From: Chitinophagaceae bacterium
GTDB lineage: Bacteria > Bacteroidota > Bacteroidia > Chitinophagales > Chitinophagaceae
Length of the DNA: 64,000 nucleotides
NCBI GenBank assembly: GCA_020403425.1
Contig: JADBXR010000010.1
Span: 1 to 64,000 of the forward strand
Direction of reading: 5' to 3'
Shown here: piece by piece, positions 60,242 through 60,743 of the stretch
How the letters are laid out: each line of letters begins with the position of its first letter
Position numbering within the stretch: the first letter of the stretch is position 1
The notes under the pieces: generated by a model
Seen by the model: only the letters and a program-made list of their open reading frames with translations
Databases searched by the model: none
Told to the model about the DNA's origin: nothing
Translations under genes and position numbers: made by a program

Positions 60242-60743
60242 GTGGTGAGACGTGAGACGTGAGGCGTGAGTCGTCAGTCGTGAGTTTTTAGTGAGGTGAT
60301 CATTTTTGACAGCATCTGAAAACAGTGGGTCATATTCTTTTTTTCTTGTGTCAGATATTCCTGATGGATATAGCCAAGTTCAATGGCTATATCCAATGCG
60401 GTATCTATTTCAATAAGCGAACCTCGTGAAATTTTGGAAAACCGCTTTCTTTCGGTTTCGGATTTTCTTGAAAAACCTTCGGCTATATTCAAATGTACAG
60501 AAACGGCTGCTCTTCTGAGCTGTTGCGTCAAAGCGTATTTCTCCTCAGGCGGGAATGATCGGGTGCTTTTATATAAGCAGACGGTCAACTCCCTTGATGC
60601 AGAAAAGATTTCTAAGTGCGTGTGTGATAATTCGAGAAACATAAAATATGTTTATCTCAAATTACTTTATCCTTCAACCTAGTTATTAAGTATTTATACC
60701 TAATTCACTCACTGACTCACGTCTCACGCCTCACGACTGACGA
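60242..60743. mobile_element. heptad-arm inverted repeat element F enclosing a four-helix-bundle gene (candidate mobile/IVS-like element)
   Basis: Left gtgagac gtgagac gtgaggc gtgagtc gtcagtc gtgag (to 60284); right ctcactgactcacgtctcacgcctcacgactgacga (60708-60743). Core cgtgaggcgtgag 60258-60270 is the exact reverse complement of 60723-60735. Confidence 0.6.
60274..60642 (-). CDS. four helix bundle protein (23S rRNA intervening-sequence protein family)
   Basis: 122 aa; LRRAAVSVHLNIAEGFSRKSETERKRFSKISRGSLIEIDTALDIAIELGYI matches the family pattern. C-terminal LKTHD-stop is encoded by the repeat arm. Confidence 0.92.
   Translation of the reverse strand: MFLELSHTHLEIFSASRELTVCLYKSTRSFPPEEKYALTQQLRRAAVSVHLNIAEGFSRKSETERKRFSKISRGSLIEIDTALDIAIELGYIHQEYLTQEKKNMTHCFQMLSKMITSLKTHD

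Follow-up and report, generated by a model that had tools for sequence, protein, structure and literature searches.

The interval between recQ and copA in this Chitinophagaceae genome raises the question of what a small four-helix-bundle gene is doing between two inverted arrays of a seven-base repeat, and whether gene and repeat belong to one system. The locus lies in a stretch of 64,000 nucleotides, referred to here as the window. The ORF and its two inverted arrays of the heptad GT(G/C)AGNC occupy the entire gap as an element of 508 bp (60236-60743, minus strand). The element reaches from the stop codon of the P-type ATPase gene copA (60744-60746), which is touched by the right arm as the earlier note had described, to the recQ start at 60235, and recQ, the ORF and copA are all co-directional. 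In the sense of the gene, the 5' (upstream) arm (60706-60743, minus strand) reads GTCAGTC GTGAGGC GTGAGAC GTGAGTC A GTGAGTG, and the 3' (downstream) inverted arm (about 60245-60286) reads GTGAGAC GTGAGAC GTGAGGC GTGAGTC GTCAGTC GTGAGTT on the plus strand. Complementary pairing between the arms extended over 29 nt at 86% and over 14 nt at 100%, and the predicted RNA fold of the whole element was closed through them (z = -7.0). The GTSAGDC 15-mer, with at most one mismatch, was matched 17 times in the window versus 0.05 matches expected.

The enclosed gene (60274-60642, minus strand) encodes a 122-aa protein of the IVP/S23 family, in agreement with the earlier description of a four-helix-bundle ORF between inverted heptad arms. 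It matched PF05635 23S_rRNA_IVP (E = 5e-30; 104.3 bits versus a curated cut-off of 33.8), its sole domain in the Pfam scan, and TIGR02436 (E = 2e-29; 102 bits versus a cut-off of 24). The AlphaFold model was a confident four-helix bundle (pLDDT 92.6), with the closest folds being 2GSC (TM 0.89), then 2RLD and the diversity-generating retroelement (DGR) protein Avd, 4DWL (TM 0.73). PADLOC defence annotation gave no match. The C-terminus and stop codon had been described as encoded by an arm. The last five codons (LKTHD) are indeed read into the arm, but this extension is derived and incidental. The ORFs of the sister species G399 and of locus L089 end in TAA directly before the arm; in the window, the TAA at this position (60288-60290, minus strand) is out of frame because of a small length difference, so the ORF runs on. 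The closest homologues mostly have 116-118 aa, and residues 119-122 of the window protein had a pLDDT below 50. A functional arm-encoded C-terminus was rejected on these grounds.

The recQ-copA site was compared between relatives. In 18 of them the copA-recQ gap was just 2-21 bp, an empty site of the kind that the earlier note had suggested looking for, and nine others, drawn from several genera, carried the element there (gap of 360-643 bp). About four state changes were needed on the flanking-protein tree (three to four in bootstrap trees), of which well-supported branches force only one. Since several genera share the coding copy at this site, it appears to have been inherited mostly vertically instead of jumping actively, and the empty sites may be losses; in view of the synteny and the tree, the idea that they prove a recent insertion was abandoned. 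The coding copy is thus old here, with repeated gain, loss, or both being possible. The closest empty sites were too diverged for a comparison of target duplications, and neither a transposition event nor a target duplication was observed. Two occupied sites (L235 and L236) carried a different unit, TCGAGAA and TCGGCAA, respectively, changed in both arms, which argues that the arms change together.

The arrangement is not peculiar to the window. PF05635 matches were present in 158 of 200 sampled Bacteroidota genomes, with up to 16 per genome, and the window genome (G000) alone has ten, with differing arm units. Arms were scored as the best inverted match between the upstream and downstream flanks of 163 PF05635 loci, with mispaired flanks as the reference. 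As most of these loci were best-scoring PF05635 matches, weaker subfamilies are under-represented. The median score was 15.5, versus 9.5 for mispaired flanks. Scores above the 99th mispaired percentile were reached by 81 of the 163 genes and by none of 41 control genes of the window, while 114 of the 163 exceeded the 95th percentile, leaving about 30% of the sampled genes without arms at that level. Homologues are thus strongly enriched for inverted arms, and the proposal of the earlier note survives the refuting conditions that it had set. The arms were tandem arrays, with a best period of 7 in 57 of 81 cases and 8 in 18 of 81. Order-specific matching of the arms was weak (11 of 76 at p<0.05) in a test biased by arm choice. 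In 81 cases the PF05635 gene ran in the direction of both its neighbours, and in 8 it ran against both (p = 2.5e-16), a sense bias that is consistent with a gene relying on operon transcription. Three individual loci differed in detail. A degenerate IVP gene of the window genome (L010; G000:C12:754073-754273) had two stops and no detectable arms. At L066, a small GTGGCTTCGCCAC hairpin was also found in each arm, on the gene side. The IVP gene of a Bacillota MAG (L092) was bordered by imperfect inverted repeats of about 280 nt with nested short inverted repeats, unlike tandem-unit arms.

The repeat unit followed the protein clade. Arm similarity increased with protein similarity (Mantel p = 0.001). 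In the clade of the window protein, GT[GC]A[AG]NN (GTSARNN) was found in both arms at 25 of 30 loci versus 4 of 100 other loci (p = 7e-18), and in the L005 clade [AG]GWTNC units were found at 25 of 26 loci versus 9 of 104 others (p = 3e-18); these p-values are descriptive, as the motifs were chosen post hoc and the loci share ancestry. The match is not a product of shared sites, since the clade unit was present at 12 of 13 site clusters in the window clade and at all eight in the L005 clade. Within the latter, the nearest members carried TGGATRC, and GGTTNC-like units occurred further out. A universal heptad, as the earlier wording implied, was rejected, because the unit differs from one protein clade to the next. 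The association extended to whole genomes: among 200 genomes of the family, at least three GTSAG 15-mers were present in 19 of the 49 with a window-clade protein and in 2 of the 151 without one (p = 1.6e-11). By far the most exact GTSAGDC 15-mers among these 200 genomes (462) were counted in G259. The window-clade gene of G259 (L222) had no detectable arms.

The same units also occur away from the genes. In 591 kb of the window genome, ORF-less copies were found for all nine resident arm types, whose 13-mers located 55 sites, on average 6.1 for each type. With 96 sets of foreign arms, the mean in the same 591 kb was 0.71 sites, equivalent to the 0.74 of a mirrored control representing chance. 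Within the stretch examined, 19 of these 55 ORF-less sites scored as hairpins, and the remaining 36 had no strong inverted partner there and could be short matches or arrays with one side only. In the window, ORF-less GTSARNN hairpins lie at 8045-8111, where G399 has a longer, different array, and at 21938-22105, 38082-38183, 41792-41912 and 49928-49986. Other resident IVP genes are represented by an ORF-less hairpin of GAGTGAAT units (47381-47458; arm type of L008), replaced by a different hairpin in G399, an ORF-less GTTTGGG-unit hairpin (47816-47896; arm type of L004), missing from G399, and an AATTTGARA-unit array within an inverted repeat (26111-26145; arm type of L006). The GTSARNN hairpins of the two sister species G000 and G399 (about 89% DNA identity) pointed inward like the coding element in 20 of 20 cases. 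Several hairpins of one species were missing or replaced in the other, and the differences were replacements rather than clean insertions. Directly before a terminator-like hairpin, the intergenic spot at 47323-47570 of the window carries hairpin repeats different from those in the orthologous spot of G399. At G000:C2 79213-79570 (L268), a unit with a GAATATTGAACAAGGAATGATGAA hairpin, the arm type of the resident IVP gene L009, is locally triplicated, and G399 has one copy. The earlier proposal of a coding form with ORF-less derivatives is supported as far as the shared units are concerned, but an actively jumping coding copy is not, given the apparently mostly vertical inheritance of that copy.

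Several known systems resemble the locus. Intervening sequences (IVS) of 23S rRNA in Coxiella, Leptospira and others encode a protein of the same family in one small ORF within an inverted-repeat stem; they have been described as selfish, and the role of their protein is still unclear (PMC4990558). Window-type elements, in contrast, lie between protein genes, here between copA and recQ and outside any 23S rRNA gene, have arms of clade-specific short-unit tandem arrays and are accompanied by many gene-free copies. An Rfam scan of three loci (L002, L089 and L092) gave no match to an rRNA family or to any other Rfam family. RAYT-REPIN systems (PMC3116915) share with the present genes the single-copy state, distinctness within a genome, a position beside their own repeat family, dispersed hairpin-forming copies, apparent co-evolution and largely vertical inheritance, and in both the repeat that borders the gene in inverted copies is also scattered through the host genome. 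However, the partner here is a four-helix bundle instead of a Y1/HUH transposase, and tandem 7-9-mers take the place of REP palindromes. The fold is that of Avd, and homology to PF05635 was remarked on in a DGR paper (PMC10053308), whereas reverse transcriptase is missing from most carrier genomes tested. Intergenic tandem heptamers of the TAACTGA type are known from Beggiatoaceae, Cyanobacteria and Bacteroidetes; unlike the arms, they are described as direct repeats, most of them immediately upstream of starts, for which neither an evident mechanism of spread nor an IVP partner was given (PMC4679880). MITEs and insertion sequences likewise have inverted termini and coding and non-coding forms, but the coding form here has no transposase domain. 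The locus lacks what defines an rRNA IVS (location), a RAYT (Y1 domain) and a DGR (reverse transcriptase); its layout is that of RAYT-REPIN, and its protein and stem are those of an IVS. A search of the open-access literature found no paper that connects PF05635 genes to inverted tandem arms.

We lean, at a little better than even confidence, towards the locus being the protein-coding member of a RAYT-REPIN-like protein-plus-repeat system that would work as follows. The single-copy IVP gene, in sense orientation between operon genes, would have no promoter of its own and rely on operon transcription. An IVP oligomer with the fold of the Avd barrel would bind the cognate unit as DNA, probably as a single-stranded hairpin that becomes exposed during replication, and would thereby maintain or spread the repeats and keep both arms alike. 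No nuclease or transposase domain is recognisable in the protein, so the strand-breaking chemistry would be supplied from outside, by host replication and repair or by a transposase in trans, and the coding copy itself would seldom move. The broader proposal, to which we give somewhat less than even confidence, is that such systems form a new class built on a four-helix-bundle protein that is no transposase. Recognition of a short clade-specific tandem unit by this protein would make hairpin repeats of the unit spread and evolve in concert, and one genome would house several independent pairs.

An action at the RNA level is the most serious rival and, in our estimation, an unlikely one. Here the arms would pair in the polycistronic mRNA as a stem whose loop contains the ORF, IVP and/or RNase III would process the operon transcript, and mobility would be secondary. 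The strong sense-orientation bias between co-directional genes would fit such an element, as would the very stable predicted fold closing it, the same protein family and stem-plus-ORF layout in rRNA IVS (PMC4990558) and the place of the Avd relative in DGR ribonucleoproteins (8ube, 8ub7). Nevertheless, a sense bias would also arise if a gene lacking a promoter could persist only in transcribed places, and many ORF-less sites have no clear inverted partner. Arm mismatches showed no excess of G-U over A-C (146 versus 172), so a constraint on an RNA stem is unsupported, strong as the predicted fold is. A reverse-transcription route, with IVP acting like Avd beside a reverse transcriptase, is suggested by the structural similarity to Avd and a weak sequence match to the Avd PHROG 3206. 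We consider it very improbable: a profile search for RVT_1 (PF00078) in ten carrier genomes found none in seven (G000, the window genome, G399, G259, G296, G265, G237 and G166).

It is also doubtful, more so than the RNA-level reading, that a Y1 (HUH) IS200-like/RAYT transposase mobilises the repeats in trans, with the IVP gene as an accessory factor or passenger. Y1_Tnp was found in all ten IVP-rich genomes tested versus 2 of 21 IVP-poor genomes of the window's genus, a co-occurrence confounded by genome reduction and by the use of one genus, and hairpin ends are in principle compatible with single-stranded DNA transposition. Against this, the arm unit tracks the IVP clade, and the transposase genes were rejected as carriers of the same arms, as none of the eight inspected had tandem-unit arms and several have palindromes of their own. 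Y1 transposase genes at L355-L359 and L361 lie near REP-like short palindromes, e.g., CTCCTACGGAG, GCTTCGGAGAAGC and GAAGGGTTGAAACCCTTC. A passive association, in which slippage enlarges intergenic tandem repeats and IVP genes landed or are tolerated there, appears still less probable. Tandem heptads without a known mobiliser do exist in some bacteria (TAACTGA, PMC4679880), and some local amplification was visible (C2 79213), but slippage leaves unexplained the clade-specific units at many sites, the inverted arrangement, the consistent inward polarity and the matching of resident as opposed to foreign arms. Recognition of the unit as DNA by an IVP oligomer is favoured by the lack of a G-U excess, the missing RVT_1 in most carriers and the Y1 genes without tandem-unit arms.

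Taken together, short repeats, usually of seven bases, around PF05635 genes and in gene-free hairpins point to an undescribed protein-plus-repeat system. Bacteroidota commonly carry four-helix-bundle genes of this family, whose function is unexplained, and a clade-specific cognate repeat offers each IVP protein a concrete candidate binding target. Such pairing would account for many odd intergenic tandem hairpins in Bacteroidota genomes. The stable partnership of gene and repeat known from RAYT-REPIN would then have a second example, built on an unrelated protein.
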